Of a stretch of 7,865 bases of DNA, positions 371-7,865 are shown piece after piece (the stretch's first letter is position 1; the number at the start of each line of letters is the position of its first letter). Below the pieces are notes generated by a model. That model was not told where the DNA came from, searched no databases, and was given only the letters and a program-made list of their open reading frames with translations. This DNA comes from Erysipelotrichia bacterium (lineage in GTDB: Bacteria > Bacillota_I > Bacilli_A > Erysipelotrichales > Erysipelotrichaceae). A program made the translations under genes and the position numbers. Location: NCBI GenBank assembly GCA_009916335.1, contig SAAR01000158.1:1-7865 (forward strand), read 5' to 3'.

Positions 371-375
371 TTTAA

Positions 376-640
376 AAGCATAGCGCTAAGAACTTCCAGA
401 ACCTTTAGGTTTGTGTAATGAATTGGTACATAAAACCTTAGGTTGTGATATCAAAAAAGAAGGACGTAAGACTACTAGAAGTAGCCTAAATCCTTGTTAT
501 AGTAGGTTAGGAACTAGCCAAACTTATACGCTTGTGGACTCTGCGTAAGATGGAAGAATAACCTTTCGGTTAAAAAACACAGTAGAGGTCGAAACAAGAA
601 GCATGGAAGCTTTCGCTTCGTGTGTAGTTCACAAAGAAAG
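376..640 (+). ncRNA. Candidate structured RNA, family not recognised
   Basis: The block contains a series of hairpins found by eye. At 400-444 there is a long stem: AACCT/AGGTT (400-404 with 440-444), GGTTT/AAACC (408-412 with 433-437) and GTGTA/TACAT (413-417 with 427-431). Others are CTACT/AGTAG (472-476 with 480-484), CCTAA/TTAGG plus CCT/AGG (485-511), TACGC/GCGTA (527-531 with 543-547), TAACC/GGTTA closing a TTTC loop (559-572), and GAAGC/GCTTC closing another TTTC loop (606-619, extended to 602-622 with a bulged G). CTTCCA at 393-398 can pair with TGGAAG at 551-556, enclosing most of the hairpins as a multibranch domain. CTTA at 523-526 could alternatively pair with TAAG at 387-390. The block ends just before the ribosome binding site of the 26-codon ORF, and a terminator follows that ORF. 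It could be a free-standing ncRNA (the raiA motif of Bacillota is one known family worth testing) or the leader of the small ORF. I saw no T-box, SAM, TPP, lysine, tmRNA, SRP or RNase P signature. Confidence 0.6.
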
Positions 641-654
641 GGAGGTAATTACAT

Positions 655-735
655 ATGTTTTACTTTGCAAGAGCAATTGGCTTTGCCTCAATTGCAGCAA
701 CTTTTTATTTGTATCGTTATTTCTTCTGCCGTTAA
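655..735 (+). CDS. Candidate 26-aa hydrophobic micro-protein
   Basis: An ATG at 655 is preceded by AAAGGGAGGT (637-646) with 8 nt spacing, a strong ribosome binding site. The frame runs 26 codons to TAA at 733-735, and a textbook terminator begins 4 nt later. That gives a compact start-to-terminator unit. The peptide starts MFYFARAIGFASIAATF and ends YLYRYFFCR: a small-residue hydrophobic centre followed by an aromatic, arginine-containing tail, consistent with a single short membrane-spanning or surface helix. I do not recognise it. It lies directly downstream of the stem-loop-rich block, so its translation may be controlled by that RNA, or the RNA may be the functional product and the ORF secondary. 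The tiny size, hydrophobicity and basic end resemble the ORF at 258-329 in general character, though not in sequence. Confidence 0.55.
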   Translation: MFYFARAIGFASIAATFYLYRYFFCR

Positions 736-739
736 TTCA

Positions 740-770
740 CAAAGGTGGCTTTTGCCACTTTTGTTTTTTT
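740..770 (+). terminator. Intrinsic terminator after the 26-codon ORF
   Basis: CAAAGGTGGC (740-749) pairs with GCCACTTTTG (754-763) around a TTTT loop, giving ten pairs with one G-U, followed at once by seven T (764-770). This is a classic rho-independent terminator on the + strand. It ends the transcript carrying the structured block and the small ORF, and isolates it from murF. Confidence 0.9.
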
Positions 771-884: not shown

Positions 885-2279
885 ATGATTACCTTAAGTA
901 TAAAAGAAATTGCGGCGATGATGGATGGAGAATTAATGTTAAATTCTATGTCAGAAGATACAATCATTAAAGGCGTATGCATTGATTCAAGAAAAATAGA
1001 TCCATTGAATATGTATGTACCAATACTAGGTGAAAGAGTAGATGGTCATAAATTTATAGAAAATATTGAAAAAGAGGGTATCGCATTGACACTTTGTAGT
1101 GATGATCAATATATACCTACTCATATGGCAGTGATTAAAGTGAAGGACACAGTTGTTGCTTTACAACAGTTAGCCCATAATTATCGTATGTCGCTATCTT
1201 GCAAAGTGATTGGCATTACTGGTAGTAATGGAAAAACAAGTTGTAAAGACATATTAGCTGGTGCTTTATCTGCTAAGTATAAAACACAAAAAACACAAGG
1301 AAATAAAAATAATGAGATAGGGGTTCCGTTAACGTTATTGTCTTTAGATAAGGATGTTGAAATGGCAGTGATTGAAATGGGAATGGAAAATCGAGAAGAA
1401 ATCCATTTTCTAAATAAAATTGTTGCACAAGATGATGCCATTATCACAAATGTAGGGATTGCTCATTTAGAAAATTTAGGCTCTATTGAAAATATCGGAC
1501 ATGCAAAATTGGAAATTGTCGATGATCTGAAAGCGGGTAGTTTATTCTGTTATTATGGAGATGATCCTATTTTAAAAGCTTTGATGAAGAAAAAAGAATT
1601 ACCTAATGGTGTACAAGTACAAACGTTTGGGAAAGACCACAATAATGATTTGTATTTAACCTCACTTACACAAAGTGCAAAAGGAATTGATTTTACAATC
1701 AATATTAGTGATTTTGTTTTTCATATTGATATTTTGGGTGAGCATCAAGCACTGAATGCAATGGCTGCTATTAGTATTGCAAAAAAGTTAGGCTTATGCG
1801 ATGAAGAAATTCAAGCAGGTTTTCTAACGATGGAGAAAACAAGTATGCGTAATGAACTAATGCATTTAGATAAAGCAATCATTTTAAATGATGCATATAA
1901 ATCAAATCCACAAAGTGCAAAAGCTGCATTAGAAACATTCCATTTGTTTAAACATCCATATAAAATTGTCGTTTTGGCAGATATGCTGGATTTAGGAGAA
2001 ACGACGACTCATTTACATCATGCACTAGGTGCATCATTAAAGAAATACGATTTACAAGAAATCTTATGTATGGGGGAATTGTCTAAATATATTGAGGAAG
2101 GGGCAAAGGAAAGTTGTCCTGATGCGATTATACATCACTTTGATAATCGGGATACCTTGTTTTCATATATGAAAGAATATATACATAGAGATTGTATGAT
2201 TTTGTTTAAAGGTTCAAGAGGAATGGCATTGGATTTAGTAATAGATAAAATGAAGGAATATGGTGATAAAGATGAATAA
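885..2279 (+). CDS. murF: UDP-N-acetylmuramoyl-tripeptide--D-alanyl-D-alanine ligase
   Basis: MurF is the cytoplasmic ATP-dependent ligase that adds D-Ala-D-Ala to UDP-MurNAc-tripeptide, the last step in making the soluble peptidoglycan precursor. The 464-residue frame has normal family length and architecture. The N-terminal substrate-binding domain carries GERVDGHKF (49-57). The central ATPase domain carries the P-loop GITGSNGKT (110-118), the MurF-typical GNKNNEIGVPLTLL and EMGMENREEI, TNVGIAHLENLG, and K208 in AKLEI, which by homology is the carbamylated lysine. The C-terminal domain carries LNDAYKSNPQS (from 334) and KGSRGM (442-447). AGGAGGG at 873-879 lies 5 nt before the ATG. The end overlaps the start of ddl by 8 nt, implying translational coupling. 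Identification is secure, although YKSNP departs slightly from the commoner YNANP. Confidence 0.95.
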   Translation: MITLSIKEIAAMMDGELMLNSMSEDTIIKGVCIDSRKIDPLNMYVPILGERVDGHKFIENIEKEGIALTLCSDDQYIPTHMAVIKVKDTVVALQQLAHNYRMSLSCKVIGITGSNGKTSCKDILAGALSAKYKTQKTQGNKNNEIGVPLTLLSLDKDVEMAVIEMGMENREEIHFLNKIVAQDDAIITNVGIAHLENLGSIENIGHAKLEIVDDLKAGSLFCYYGDDPILKALMKKKELPNGVQVQTFGKDHNNDLYLTSLTQSAKGIDFTINISDFVFHIDILGEHQALNAMAAISIAKKLGLCDEEIQAGFLTMEKTSMRNELMHLDKAIILNDAYKSNPQSAKAALETFHLFKHPYKIVVLADMLDLGETTTHLHHALGASLKKYDLQEILCMGELSKYIEEGAKESCPDAIIHHFDNRDTLFSYMKEYIHRDCMILFKGSRGMALDLVIDKMKEYGDKDE

Positions 2280-3360
2280 AATAAAATTAGCTGTCATTTT
2301 TGGTGGGAAATCAAGTGAATATAGTGTTTCATTGCATTCAGCAAGTAGTGCAATTGAAAACTTGGATAGAAATTTGTATGAATTAATTTTTATCGGTATT
2401 GACGAAAGTGGTAAATGGTATTATTATCCAGGCGATGTTGAGGGAATTGAACACGATACATGGAAAAAACATGAAGGGTTATGTAATGTTGTTTTAAGCA
2501 GTAGTGAAGCATATAAAGGCTTTATCAAGTTAAAAGAGGACGGTTGTTTTGAATTATTAGCGGTCGATTGTATTTTTCCTATATTACATGGTAAAAATGG
2601 GGAAGATGGAACGATTCAAGGACTTTTTGCTTTAGCGAATATTCCTTTTGTTGGCTGTGATCATTTAAGTAGTGCGATTTCAATGGATAAAGATTATACA
2701 CACATCATCTGTGAGGCAGCAAATATCAAAATGGCTCCTTATCTTTGTGTAAAGAAATCTGCAGATTTAGATTATTCAGCGTTATTTAAGGAAGTAGAAA
2801 CAAAATTAACATTCCCTGTTTTTATTAAACCTGCCAATGCTGGTTCCTCTTATGGAATTAGTAAAATCAATACTTATGATGAATTTGAAGAAGGATTGAA
2901 AAAGGCATTTTTGCATGATCAGAAAGTGATTTTAGAAACAGGAATTGATGGTTTTGAAATAGGCTGTGCAGTTTTAGGAAATGATACATTAACAATTGGT
3001 GAATTAGATGAAATAGATACACATAATGATTTCTTTGATTTTGAAGCGAAATATGCATTAGAAAACACACAGATTCATTGTCCTGCTCGTATTAGTGAAA
3101 CGTTGACACTAGAGGCTAAGGAAATGGCTAAAAAAATCTATCGTGCATTAGGTTGCAGTGGTTTAGCTAGAGTAGACATGTTTGTTAGTACGCAAGGGGA
3201 AATCTTCTTTAATGAAGTGAATACCATTCCTGGCTTTACCAAAGCAAGTCGCTATCCAACGATGATGAAAACAGCAGGTGTTGATTTTAAAACATTGCTT
3301 AATCAACTAGTTAAATTGGCAATGGATAAAGCTTGTGGAGAAAATCATGCTACAAAGTAA
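2272..3360 (+). CDS. ddl: D-alanine--D-alanine ligase
   Basis: Ddl is an ATP-grasp enzyme joining two D-Ala in the cytoplasm; its product is the MurF substrate. From the ATG at 2272 the protein has 362 residues, normal for Gram-positive Ddl. The frame is open from an ATG at 2260, but the start at 2272 gives the usual N-terminus (MNKIKLAVIFGGKSSE) and has GGTGAT four nt upstream. Visible residues include E16 in the SSEYSVS segment, GSSYGIS (from 191), FFDFEAKY ending at Y261, D302 in ARVDMF, and NEVNT (314-318) followed by IPGFT for Mg and ATP. By homology E16, S192 and Y261 are the catalytic triad. Tyrosine rather than phenylalanine at 261 predicts D-Ala-D-Ala rather than D-Ala-D-lactate. GSSYG, where GSSVG is usual, is a mild oddity. 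The gene overlaps murF and alr. Confidence 0.95.
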   Translation: MNKIKLAVIFGGKSSEYSVSLHSASSAIENLDRNLYELIFIGIDESGKWYYYPGDVEGIEHDTWKKHEGLCNVVLSSSEAYKGFIKLKEDGCFELLAVDCIFPILHGKNGEDGTIQGLFALANIPFVGCDHLSSAISMDKDYTHIICEAANIKMAPYLCVKKSADLDYSALFKEVETKLTFPVFIKPANAGSSYGISKINTYDEFEEGLKKAFLHDQKVILETGIDGFEIGCAVLGNDTLTIGELDEIDTHNDFFDFEAKYALENTQIHCPARISETLTLEAKEMAKKIYRALGCSGLARVDMFVSTQGEIFFNEVNTIPGFTKASRYPTMMKTAGVDFKTLLNQLVKLAMDKACGENHATK

Positions 3361-4501
3361 AAGTAGAACATGGGTAGAAATTGATTTACAAAAAGTCATT
3401 CATAACACAAAAGTAGTAGATCGCTTAATTGGTAAAACGAAAATTATGGCAGTAGTGAAAGCGAATGCCTATGGACATGGAGATGTTGAGATTGCTACAT
3501 TGTTACAAAATGAATTGCATGTTGATTTTTTTGCTGTTTCTAGTGTTGATGAAGCGATTATTTTAAGAGAAAATGGAATTGATCAAAACATTTTAATTTT
3601 AGGCTATACACCAGTTGAACATTTTCATTACTTACATGAACTTAAAATAACCCAGTGTTTGTTAAGCTTAAAATATGCACAAAAATTAGATGCGTATGCG
3701 AAAAAGCATCAGCAATATATAAATGGACATATAAAAGTTGATACAGGGATGTCAAGATTAGGGATTGTTTGTTTAGATGATGATTATCATATTGATGAGG
3801 TATTAAAAATTTATCAATTAGAAAATGTCAAGGTAACAGGGATCTTTTCACATTTTAGTGTATCGGATAGTTTGGATAAGGAAGATGATATTGCCTTTAC
3901 AAAACATCAGATTGAGCTATTTGAAAAGGTATTGAAAGATGTAAAAGCAGCAGGTTATGATTGGGGAGTTCGCCATATTCATAATAGTTATGGGTGTTTA
4001 AATTATTTTGCTCTACAATATGAGTATGCACGTCCAGGTATAATTTTATTAGGTAATACAAGTAATGATCAAGATCGTTTAATACAACCCATTGATTTAC
4101 AACCAGCATTGGAGTGGAAAGCAAATATCTCATTAGTTAAAACAGTGAAAAAAGGTACCTATGTAGGTTATGGACGTAACTTTCAAGCACCTAATGATAT
4201 GAAGATAGCGAGTGTGAGTGTAGGGTATGCCGATGGATTGAATCGTAATGCATCACACCATCATCTTGCTTGTTTAATTCATGGAAAACGTTGTGAAATA
4301 ATCGCTAATATTTGTATGGATCAATGTTTAGTAGATGTGAGTGCAGTGGCTGATGTACAAGAAGGCGATATTGCAACTCTTGTTGGAAAAGATCAAGAAG
4401 AAGTGATTACCATTGATGAACTTTCAAGAGCAGCGAATACGATTAATAATGAATCGTTTACGTTGATTTCTAAACGTGTACCAAGATTTTATAAACGTTA
4501 G
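3347..4501 (+). CDS. alr: Alanine racemase, PLP-dependent
   Basis: Alr interconverts L- and D-alanine in the cytoplasm and supplies Ddl. The ATG at 3347 is chosen over a GTG at 3335 because GGAG (3337-3340) stands 6 nt before it and the N-terminus then reads MLQSKSRTWVEIDL, typical of the family. The 384-residue length is normal. In order: PLP lysine K38 in VVKANAYGHG, R137 in DTGMSRLG, the HNSYG segment, R229 in ARPG (pyridine nitrogen contact), the second catalytic base Y275 in VGYGRNF, Y294 in VGYADG, and M324-D325 in ICMDQ. These assignments follow the spacing of the Geobacillus enzyme (K39, R136, Y265, Y284, M312-D313). The start overlaps ddl by 14 nt, so the two are probably translationally coupled. 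All catalytic features are intact. Confidence 0.95.
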   Translation: MLQSKSRTWVEIDLQKVIHNTKVVDRLIGKTKIMAVVKANAYGHGDVEIATLLQNELHVDFFAVSSVDEAIILRENGIDQNILILGYTPVEHFHYLHELKITQCLLSLKYAQKLDAYAKKHQQYINGHIKVDTGMSRLGIVCLDDDYHIDEVLKIYQLENVKVTGIFSHFSVSDSLDKEDDIAFTKHQIELFEKVLKDVKAAGYDWGVRHIHNSYGCLNYFALQYEYARPGIILLGNTSNDQDRLIQPIDLQPALEWKANISLVKTVKKGTYVGYGRNFQAPNDMKIASVSVGYADGLNRNASHHHLACLIHGKRCEIIANICMDQCLVDVSAVADVQEGDIATLVGKDQEEVITIDELSRAANTINNESFTLISKRVPRFYKR

Positions 4502-4510
4502 TATAAAAAC

Positions 4511-4518
4511 AAGGAGGT
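4511..4518 (+). promoter_or_regulatory. Ribosome binding site that fixes the FAD enzyme start
   Basis: AAGGAGGT is an essentially perfect anti-SD complement in the 23-nt gap after alr. It stands 6 nt before the ATG at 4525. The in-frame GTG at 4519 directly abuts it and is too close to be used. Confidence 0.85.
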
Positions 4519-4524
4519 GTGTCA

Positions 4525-6120
4525 ATGTTAAGAGTCAGTCAAATTAAATTATCATTAGAAGAAAATGAAGATTGTCTACATGAAAAAATTATCAGCAAAT
4601 TAAAGCTTCCTAAAAAAAGCAAGTTACACTATCATATTCATCGACGTAATATTGATGCACGAGATAAGTCGATGATTTATTTTGTATATAGTGTCAATGT
4701 TGTACTAACAAAAGAATTGGAAAAAAGCATTTTGCGTAAGCATTTAAAAGATGTGAGTAAAGTAGCATCAACCGCTACTTATACATTGAAAAAAGGCTGT
4801 CAGTTTATGCAACATCGCCCGATTATTGTTGGTTTTGGACCAGCAGGTATGTTTGCGGCATATACCCTTTCTAAGTATGGCTATCGTCCTATTGTCTTTG
4901 AACGTGGAGAAGATGTAGATGCTCGTAGTAAAAGCGTAGAAACTTTTTTTCGTAAAGGGATTTTGAATGAGGAAAGTAATATTCAGTTTGGGGAAGGTGG
5001 TGCAGGTACTTTTTCTGATGGAAAATTAACAGCACGAAGTAAAGATATTCGTGTGCAAATGATTTACGATACTTTTGTATCCTTTGGTGCACCAAAGGAT
5101 ATTGCCTTTGAAAGCCTACCGCATATTGGTAGTGATCGTCTAAAAGAAGTAATTAAAAAAATGAGAGAAGAAATCATTGCTTTAGGTGGTGAAGTACATT
5201 TTTCCTCTAAAGTAGAGCAGTTAGTTCTTGAGCATAATGAGATTCAAGGGGTGATTGTTGATGGAAAAAGCTATCCAAGTAATCATGTGATTTTGGCATT
5301 AGGTAATAGTGCAAGAGATACGATTCGTACTTTTCATAAACAAGGGTTATTAATGGAAAGTAAAGCATTTGCGATTGGTGTTCGTGTTGAACAAAAACAA
5401 GCATTGATCAATCAAGCTTGCTATCATCAATTTGCAAATCATTCATCATTATCAGCAGCTAGCTATTTTTTGAGCAATCAAAAAGGAACGTATACATTTT
5501 GTATGTGTCCTGGAGGAATGGTTGTCGCAGCAACTTCTTTAAAAGAACATGTAGTTGTCAACGGTATGAGCAATCGAGCAAGAGATGGCAGTAATGCCAA
5601 TAGTGCAATTTTAGTTCAAGTAGACAGTTCTTTGTATGGTGATAACTTATTTGATGGAATGGATTTTATTGATGAATTAGAAAGAAAAGCATACCTATTA
5701 GGTGGTGCGAATTATCAAGCACCTGCACAGCGTGTTGTTGATTTTTTAAAGCGAACACCATCAAAATCACTCGCTAATTTAAAGCCAAGTTATCCTTTAA
5801 ATGTGCGTTTATGTTCATTAGATGAACTGCTACCAGCTACAATATGTGAACAGATGCGTAATGCTTTATATGATTTTGATCATAAAATAAAAGGTTTTAT
5901 TAATGAAGATGCACTTTTAACTGCCGTTGAAACAAGGTCCTCTTCACCAATTCGTATCTTGCGTGATAAAGAGAAGATGATGTCAATTAACATCAAAGGG
6001 GTGTACCCATGTGGAGAAGGGGCAGGTTATGCTGGGGGTATTATCTCTAGTGCGATTGATGGCGTAAAATGTGCTGAAAAGATTATTAGTGAATTTATTT
6101 ATATGGAGGAGGAGAAATAA
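4525..6120 (+). CDS. FAD-dependent dehydrogenase, COG2509-type, substrate unknown
   Basis: This 531-residue protein belongs to a widespread but functionally unassigned group of FAD/NAD(P)-binding oxidoreductases (COG2509 in my judgement). The first ~95 residues form a small N-terminal domain with the family-typical stretch RRNIDARDKSMIYFVYSV. The dinucleotide-binding fold then starts with PIIVGFGPAGMFAA (GFGPAG at 103-108), followed by an acidic strand end (VFERGE), GEGGAGTFSDGK (156-167), and a C-terminal flavin-contact motif CGEGAGYAGGI (496-506). An internal CMCPGG segment is also visible. No signal peptide or membrane helix is evident, so it is probably cytoplasmic. It follows alr by 23 nt and abuts the amidohydrolase, so it is likely in the same transcript. 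Physiological substrate and electron partner are unknown; placement beside D-Ala genes does not by itself make it a wall enzyme. Confidence 0.85.
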   Translation: MLRVSQIKLSLEENEDCLHEKIISKLKLPKKSKLHYHIHRRNIDARDKSMIYFVYSVNVVLTKELEKSILRKHLKDVSKVASTATYTLKKGCQFMQHRPIIVGFGPAGMFAAYTLSKYGYRPIVFERGEDVDARSKSVETFFRKGILNEESNIQFGEGGAGTFSDGKLTARSKDIRVQMIYDTFVSFGAPKDIAFESLPHIGSDRLKEVIKKMREEIIALGGEVHFSSKVEQLVLEHNEIQGVIVDGKSYPSNHVILALGNSARDTIRTFHKQGLLMESKAFAIGVRVEQKQALINQACYHQFANHSSLSAASYFLSNQKGTYTFCMCPGGMVVAATSLKEHVVVNGMSNRARDGSNANSAILVQVDSSLYGDNLFDGMDFIDELERKAYLLGGANYQAPAQRVVDFLKRTPSKSLANLKPSYPLNVRLCSLDELLPATICEQMRNALYDFDHKIKGFINEDALLTAVETRSSSPIRILRDKEKMMSINIKGVYPCGEGAGYAGGIISSAIDGVKCAEKIISEFIYMEEEK

Positions 6121-7268
6121 TGTTATTAATTAAAAATGGAACGGTGTATACAATGGAATCAGAACAACCTGAGAAATTGGACATTTTATTAGATGAGGAA
6201 GGAAAAATTGCTGCTATTGATCATAAGATTGAAGCAGATTGTGAAATCATTGATGCACAAGGGTGCAATGTATATCCTGGTCTTGTGGAGGCTCATTGTC
6301 ATTTAGGTTTAGAGGAAGCAGGAATCGGTTTTGAAGGGAATGATGTGAATGAAATGATTGATCCAATCACACCACAAGTTCGTGTTATTGATGGGATTAA
6401 CATTATGGACGAAAGCGTGCGATTAGCTAATGAACATGGAATTGTTAGTGTATGTGCAGCACCTGGAAGTGCGAACGTACTTGGTGGACAAGTGAGTGTT
6501 TATAAAACAGTCGGTTCTTGTATAGATGATGCCATTATCAAAGAAAATGCTGCGATGAAATGTGCGTTTGGTGAAAATCCTAAACGTGTTTATCGTGATA
6601 GCAAAATTAAAACAAGAATGGGAACAGCATCGCTTTTGCGTGAAACATTAATCAAGGCTAAAAATTATATGGCATTAAAAGAATTTGCAGATGATATTAG
6701 TAAAATGCCTACCTATGATATGAAACTAGAAGCATTAATTCCTGTTCTAAATAAAAAAATCCCTTTAAAAGCACATGCACATCGTGCAGATGATATTTTA
6801 ACTTCTATTAGAATTGCGAAGGAATTTGATTTAGATATGACACTAGATCATTGTACAGAAGGACATTTAATCGTTGATAAGATTGTGGAAAGTGGTTTTC
6901 CTGCGATTGTTGGACCATCACTAACGCATAAATCTAAATTTGAATTACAAAATAAAACGTTTAAGACACCAGCTGTTTTACAACAAGCTGGAATTAAAAT
7001 TGCGATTACGACTGATTCTCCTGTCATTCCACAAGAATATTTACCATTATGTGCAGGCTTAGCAGTAAAGAGTGGTTTAGATGAAATGGAGGCATTAAAA
7101 GCGATTACGATTCATGCCGCTGAAATTATCGGTGTGGCAGATCGTGTAGGAAGCTTAAAAGTTGGTAAAGATGGTGATGTTGTCATTTGTGATGGAAATA
7201 TTATGGATGTACAAACTAATGTTTTATATACTATTGTAGATGGTAAAATAAGCTATCAAAAAGGATAG
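6120..7268 (+). CDS. Imidazolonepropionase-like amidohydrolase, substrate unknown
   Basis: This is a 382-residue metal-dependent hydrolase of the amidohydrolase superfamily, in the imidazolonepropionase-like (COG1228) branch. The N-terminal strands (MLLIKNGTVYTM to VYPGLVEAHCH) and C-terminal GSLKVGKDGDVVICDG form the composite beta-sandwich around a TIM barrel. Expected metal or catalytic residues are H59 and H61 (HCH), H219 and H221 (HAHRADD), H244 and H249 (DHCTEGH) and D299 (TTDSP). No signal peptide is seen. The stop of the FAD enzyme and this ATG share one base (TAATG), and GGAGGAGGAG (6105-6114) precedes it, so the two genes are probably translationally coupled. It is not obviously histidine-utilisation HutI, since no hut genes are nearby. 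Related enzymes cleave Xaa-Pro or other dipeptides or cyclic amides. The substrate cannot be read from sequence alone. Confidence 0.82.
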   Translation: MLLIKNGTVYTMESEQPEKLDILLDEEGKIAAIDHKIEADCEIIDAQGCNVYPGLVEAHCHLGLEEAGIGFEGNDVNEMIDPITPQVRVIDGINIMDESVRLANEHGIVSVCAAPGSANVLGGQVSVYKTVGSCIDDAIIKENAAMKCAFGENPKRVYRDSKIKTRMGTASLLRETLIKAKNYMALKEFADDISKMPTYDMKLEALIPVLNKKIPLKAHAHRADDILTSIRIAKEFDLDMTLDHCTEGHLIVDKIVESGFPAIVGPSLTHKSKFELQNKTFKTPAVLQQAGIKIAITTDSPVIPQEYLPLCAGLAVKSGLDEMEALKAITIHAAEIIGVADRVGSLKVGKDGDVVICDGNIMDVQTNVLYTIVDGKISYQKG

Positions 7269-7323: not shown

Positions 7324-7433
7324 CTACTTGGATAAGCATATGGCTATAAGAACAACGATATAGAATGAAAGTAAGAAAAAAGCTTTGATGAATATTTTAC
7401 ATGCAAATTACATATTCTGTATTGAGGTGGCTC
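7324..7433 (+). promoter_or_regulatory. Intergenic leader of the last gene; no clear promoter
   Basis: This 110-nt gap must hold the promoter of the following gene if the terminator works. Candidates are poor: TTGATG (7385-7390) with TTACAT 17 nt downstream (7408-7413), or isolated -10-like TATAAG (7345-7350) without a matching -35. GAGGTGG (7424-7430) is the ribosome binding site of the next gene, 3 nt before its ATG. Confidence 0.35.
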
Positions 7434-7865
7434 ATGTCAAAGAAATGTAAAATGATTGTCTATTTGATTATTAGTAGTATTATATTTGCTTTATTAGCAC
7501 TGATTGTTTATCTTGTGATACACTTTGGTGTCATACAGGCTAATTTTATTTTAAAAGGGGATAAAGAAGTGAGTATTGCCTTAAATGAAACATATGAAGA
7601 GAAAGGGTATGATGTTTACTATCATTTTAAATCATATAAAGATGAAGTAGTCATTACTTCTAATGTCGATGAAACAAACATCGGAGAGTATAAAATAACC
7701 TATAAAGTTCCTCGATTAAATAAACAGGTAACAAGAACCATTCATGTGGTTGATAAAATTAAACCATTGATTAAATTAAATGGTAATCAAGAGGTGTTTA
7801 CCTTTGTTAATAATGAATATATAGATGAAGGGGCAAGTGCAATTGATAACAATGATGGTGATTTG
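7434..7865 (+). CDS. Membrane-anchored Ig-like repeat protein, 3' end missing
   Basis: The frame is open for 144 codons and is cut by the right edge. GAGGTGG just upstream of the ATG supports the start. Residues 1-7 (MSKKCKM) are basic, and about 8-31 form one long hydrophobic helix (IVYLIISSIIFALLALIVYL), which predicts an N-terminal anchor or uncleaved signal with the rest outside the cell. Residues about 40-107 look like a first Ig-like beta-sandwich repeat (LNETYEEKGYDVY, then NIGEYKITYKV and TRTIHVVD). Residues about 109 onward begin a second repeat with the hallmark EYIDEGASAIDNNDGDL of DUF5011/bacterial Ig-like domains. In Bacillota such repeats often precede a wall-acting enzyme, for example a polysaccharide deacetylase, or belong to adhesins. 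What follows here lies outside the window, so the function is open. Confidence 0.75.
   Translation, partial: MSKKCKMIVYLIISSIIFALLALIVYLVIHFGVIQANFILKGDKEVSIALNETYEEKGYDVYYHFKSYKDEVVITSNVDETNIGEYKITYKVPRLNKQVTRTIHVVDKIKPLIKLNGNQEVFTFVNNEYIDEGASAIDNNDGDL

Follow-up and report, generated by a model that had tools for sequence, protein, structure and literature searches.

What is the structured RNA that lies ahead of a 26-codon hydrophobic reading frame, just upstream of murF, in this Erysipelotrichia contig? The window, meaning the whole stretch of 7,865 nucleotides analysed here, carries on its + strand a row of genes at 885-7268 for MurF, D-Ala-D-Ala ligase, alanine racemase, an FAD-dependent protein and an amidohydrolase. 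A protein with a bacterial Ig-like domain (PF16403) begins at 7401-7865 and is truncated there, where the window stops; by eye, its first residues look like a membrane anchor. An earlier note, made from the sequence alone, had described the block ahead of murF as a run of hairpins without a conventional gene, and had offered a riboswitch-type leader, or a non-coding RNA such as raiA, as explanations. We conclude that ~376-632 is almost certainly a non-autonomous miniature IS200/IS605 element of the PATE type, an internal-deletion derivative retaining the left end (LE), the last piece of tnpB, an omegaRNA scaffold of full length and the right end (RE). The structured RNA belongs to a type of element that is already known: it forms the guide-RNA end of an IS200/IS605 that has shrunk and lost its protein genes, and it does not constitute a new RNA class. 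The family of both ends, the family and structure of the RNA, and a length insufficient for tnpA or tnpB are established here.

PATEs are defined in PMC3119063, which describes some of them as derived from IS605 by repeat-mediated deletion of the core. At ~257 bp, the element in the window would fit neither tnpA nor tnpB and has no room for a transposase. Its palindromes lie near the termini, as in PATEs, and the LE and RE hairpins are common to tnpB-bearing elements. The six long ORFs of the window belong by Pfam and protein matches to families other than transposases.

The identity of the RNA rests first on a covariance model trained on 12 other sequences, the window excluded, whose full length aligns to 502-632 (99 bits, E 9.4e-21) and which matches nowhere else in the window up to E 1. 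The scaffold is homologous to the RNA at the 3' end of tnpB genes, and its omegaRNA/RE part is identical to that of the tnpB-bearing L126 at 112 of 131 positions. Throughout the alignment the window runs parallel to the other elements, down to a common RE terminus, GTAGTTCAC (GCAGTTCAC in L132).

Upstream of the scaffold, a blastn search with 330-790 found the stretch 450-550 in two plasmid records of Finegoldia magna (77.6%), in a region annotated as RNA-guided endonuclease TnpB, and matched 50 bases to the phage-collection record MT839778 (88%). The tnpB stop falls inside the Finegoldia match, and the MT839778 element encodes, directly ahead of its match, a Y1_Tnp protein as well as a TnpB bearing OrfB_IS605 and Cas12f1-like_TNB domains; what was matched is thus the tail of tnpB plus the RNA that follows. 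That the block lacks a conventional gene was nearly right, except that ~449-488 is the frameshifted last stretch of tnpB. ORF 411-548 was considered as a gene and rejected: it has no Pfam match, starts inside the LE and, by eye, is thrown out of the tnpB frame by an extra base.

The left end is identical to that of other elements at 56 of 64 (L232), 52 of 64 (L231), 46 of 65 (L193) and 44 of 67 positions (L132); the best local scores are 56 and 50, and none of 200 shuffled queries exceeds 36. L231, which equals L233 over the 700 bases compared, L233 itself and L132 each have tnpB and omegaRNA matches. A search with 388-428 matched one genome at 33 of 41 bases; the site lies in the L193 element, upstream of a frame that by eye looks like an IS200-type tnpA, and this element also has a tnpB match and an omegaRNA. 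A shorter LE pattern matched four viral contigs and the longer, full-length pattern no viral contig, while a strict motif for this LE type is present in 4 of 40 elements. L126, the best right-end relative, scores only 26 at the left and, by this local score, lacks the LE type; thus, no single autonomous element was found that matches both ends best.

The sequence GCATAG is preceded by TTTAA, with zero to two extra A, in the window, L231 and L232. From these three sites we infer a putative TTTAA target at 371-375 and place the element at about 376-632; neither L132 nor L193 fixes the left boundary. At the junction of the LE with the tnpB scrap, a second palindrome may mark the deletion event.

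Table 1. Features of the miniature element and its 3' flank (window coordinates)
Feature	Positions	Strand	Basis
TTTAA, putative target/TAM motif 5' of element	371-375	+	three sites only
Left end (LE) of IS200/IS605 element	376-434	+	identity to L232, L231, L193, L132
LE hairpin GAACC-TTTA-GGTTT	399-412	+	sequence
Junction with second palindrome AACCTTAGGTT, near-repeat of LE hairpin stem	435-448 (palindrome 435-445)	+	by eye
Frameshifted scrap of tnpB 3' end	449-488	+	match to Finegoldia tnpB end
5' helices within tnpB scrap region	460-464/491-495 and 472-476/480-484	+	by eye and folding
omegaRNA (reRNA) scaffold and right end (RE), terminus GTAGTTCAC	502-632	+	covariance model, covariation, L126 identity
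Helix H1 GGUUAG-GAA-CUAGCC	505-519	+	two-sided changes at 5/6 pairs; 92.3% of cells paired
Long helix CUCU/AGAG (539-542 with 584-587), closing pair 551-579, around hairpin 560-571	539-587	+	covariation
RE hairpin, TTTC loop	606-619	+	sequence
Guide slot, first 16 nt of flank, holding SD GGGAGG (640-645)	633-648	+	sequence after common RE terminus; ~16-nt guide length as given in PMC8612924
26-codon hydrophobic ORF	655-735	+	ORF list; weak for the reading as a host gene
Intrinsic terminator, perfect 11-bp	739-764	+	terminator scan

The base pairing of the omegaRNA is conserved, with parts lost in the window. A larger alignment (n=38) combined the window, five other sequences and the 32 of 48 extracted places that end in TTCAC; the 16 places ending in GTGTCAA were left out. 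Changes on both sides were found at 12 of 14 named pairs. Across these pairs 94.2% of cells pair, against 71.9% in shuffles and at most 44.1% when the partners are slid by 1-3 columns; the covariation score is 0.596, against 0.189 and at most 0.147, respectively. None of 500 shuffles reaches any of five measures, in a test that somewhat favours structure, since the pairs were picked after viewing the alignments and the sequences are related. The long helix changes on both sides at all four of its pairs (95.2% paired), reading CUCU/AGAG in the window and CACU/AGUG, CUUU/AAAG or CAUU/AAUG elsewhere.

Much of what the earlier note saw in the letters is real: the fold of 376-640 is superior to that of most dinucleotide shuffles (z -2.2; 5 of 200 equally good), as is that of 376-770 (z -2.0; 4 of 100), two hairpins do carry TTTC loops (560-571 and 606-619), and the strong ribosome binding site, the 26-codon ORF and the perfect terminator are all present. 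The long-range CTTCCA/TGGAAG pairing does not hold up, as its 5' side (393-398) reads CTCCCC or CTCTCC in L231, L232, L132 and L193, and TGGAAG is absent at 551-556 and at 604-609 in the other 37 aligned omegaRNAs. The absence of a known Rfam signature was confirmed: cmscan of the whole window up to E 5 gave no match in 376-770 and four elsewhere, all to snoRNA models and far below gathering scores, and three related records gave no match at the gathering threshold. The 4227 Rfam models scanned presumably include raiA. Covarying pairs without an Rfam match had been proposed as the mark of a new class, but this RNA is an IS200/IS605 omegaRNA/RE; what looks in a blind read like an orphan structured RNA can turn out to be the guide RNA of a transposon, missed here by the Rfam families.

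The element terminates at 632, leaving the Shine-Dalgarno sequence and the micro-ORF outside it. The ORF is probably a host micro-protein gene separate from the element, and the structured RNA and the ORF are connected only through the element's location. Two terminators were found in 1-2000, against a shuffle mean of 0.6. Among 50 regions taken from 49 genomes, a scripted scan detected a short, hydrophobic ORF with a Shine-Dalgarno sequence just upstream of murF in five (L107, L110, L113, L114 and L115); three of the 50 regions are shorter than 360 bases. These micro-ORFs are loosely similar, at 26-29 aa, and four of the five carry Y-R-(Y/M) near the C end, as does the peptide in the window. 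A lax terminator scan placed a hairpin at or beyond all five, followed by a run of at least five T in three; L113 and L115 are nearly identical. A sixth candidate, L215, has another make-up, and unlike matches arise elsewhere in the scan (e.g., L014, L032 and L050), so some of the similarity may be due to chance. It is possible that the micro-ORF is a membrane micro-protein gene linked in position to murF. A second small hydrophobic ORF of 23 codons (258-329), with a strong Shine-Dalgarno sequence and no Pfam match, was seen by eye immediately ahead of the mini-element. With both peptides of the window as queries, tblastn returned nothing better than E 0.15. The search for orthologous murF-upstream loci gave 74 loci from the genome scan with a best identity of 45%, and the DNA of 330-790 matched only piecewise, in 12 of 315 Erysipelotrichales genomes. 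MurF identity reaches at most 53% in the Erysipelotrichales genomes scanned; relatives at 63-80% are present as proteins only.

Is a scaffold without its tnpB peculiar to this window? omegaRNA matches at E <= 1e-6 occur in 35 of the 315 genomes (67 places listed). Of 48 places examined, 36 offer 1400 or more bases of upstream sequence, and a forward tnpB match is absent at six of these 36 (L170, L185, L199, L201, L203 and L209); at L188 the match is limited to residues 333-394, and at L206 it is weak (26%). Two of the six have a close copy with a tnpB match in the same genome: L170 (G034) is 93.5% identical to L195 over 200 bases, and L203 (G079) is 97.4% identical to L173 over 153 bases. In both, the identity begins near the scaffold, so that they appear as scaffold-plus-right-end copies; they are possible guide-RNA-only copies. 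No DNA match was found between L185 and L200, which share a genome, or between L209 and L134. L127, a candidate with a tnpB scrap and no tnpB match within the ~540 bases covered upstream, was not counted as a mini-element. The strict motif of the window's LE is in none of the six places. TnpB-less scaffolds recur, yet these six are not of the window's exact form. Among the matches listed by a literature search, no paper was devoted to TnpB-less omegaRNAs. omegaRNAs without an adjacent tnpB are recurrent in these bacteria, and the near-copies with tnpB in the same genome make guide supply in trans testable for two of the six.

How would such an element act? It would have entered on the 3' side of TTTAA, within the leader of a gene for a small membrane protein. 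The Y1 transposase of an autonomous relative could mobilise it through the end hairpins, and read-through transcripts would carry the omegaRNA, its guide being the ~16 nt of flank that come first. A TnpB provided in trans could then cut the empty site, which would favour retention of the element. We give roughly even chances that the omegaRNA can still be used by some TnpB.

Three other readings need to be weighed. The strongest, which we rate a little short of an even chance, is that the same element is a dead relic, with an omegaRNA no longer made or bound and hairpins that are merely an inherited shape. The frameshift in the tnpB scrap would fit this, as would the state of the stems: by eye, most of the lower portion of the 551-579 stem does not pair in the window, and a 4-bp helix, GCTT/AAGC, has one broken pair. 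At the scan threshold, no promoter-like site was found on the + strand upstream of the element. However, the covariance model finds the scaffold at full length, H1 and the 539-542/584-587 helix still pair, and the pair 551/579, C-G in 32 sequences, has changed on both sides to U-A in the window alone. Moreover, the base change at the broken pair recurs in L196, L198, L202 and L204, all with tnpB matches, and L136 likewise breaks one pair of this helix.

The second is a domesticated regulator, in which a TnpB or TldR acting in trans is directed by the RNA and controls either the micro-ORF or some other target. TldRs are RNA-guided repressors according to PMC13418256, which suggests that a broken tldR locus is a source of guide RNA in trans, and the Shine-Dalgarno sequence of the ORF does sit in the guide slot. 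The flank would fill this slot after any insertion here, however, and the best second match to the guide in the window is only 12 of 16; we regard this reading as very unlikely. Equally far-fetched is a TnpB-responsive switch, with the omegaRNA as leader of the micro-ORF and the guide segment as its Shine-Dalgarno sequence; if it held, a TnpB or TldR binding or trimming it in trans would hide the ribosome site or cut it away and so shut off the membrane micro-protein. The third, a riboswitch-type leader or raiA-like ncRNA, accounts for a structured block ahead of an ORF with a Shine-Dalgarno sequence and terminator, but we hold it to be close to impossible given the transposon left end, the end-to-end omegaRNA match and the block without any Rfam match: the structured RNA is real and conserved, but it is the omegaRNA/RE of a mini-element.

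The reading of a miniature IS200/IS605 element also agrees with known systems. According to PMC8612924, ISDra2 TnpB is guided by an RNA from the tnpB 3' end, the RE and ~16 nt of flank; the composition is the same here, whereas ISDra2 has its tnpB in cis and the TAM TTGAT. TnpB makes omegaRNA out of its own mRNA (PMC10278001). TldR guide RNAs, as described in PMC13418256, are omegaRNA-like and uncoupled from nuclease function, as in the window; they differ in that the window's long ORFs include neither a tldR nor a nuclease-dead TnpB, and that the window holds no second target. Among viral contigs, L126 and L231 keep by tblastn the tnpB that the window has lost, with a similar RE (L126) or LE (L231). 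L232 (IMGVR_UViG_3300035498_000553) is itself a mini-element, where LE, omegaRNA (78.5 bits) and RE lie within ~180 bases, too short for tnpA or tnpB, and no tnpB match was found on the 10-kb contig. Unlike the window, its LE is joined straight to the scaffold with no tnpB scrap, and it is shorter after GTGGACT, with the terminus GCAGTTCAC. Finally, section 3.8 of PMC7290912 (2020) describes a 'PATE-like' IS605 sequence of ~271 nt in Halanaerobium hydrogeniformans, which lacks tnpA and consists of a 28-nt LE bearing a hairpin, the final 58 nt of tnpB and the entire 160-nt RE. The host is another one and that section presents the element without an omegaRNA function; judged from the description, its layout of LE, tnpB end and RE is the same as that of the window. 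The mini-element is an ordinary kind of thing, well resolved, with its guide RNA kept.
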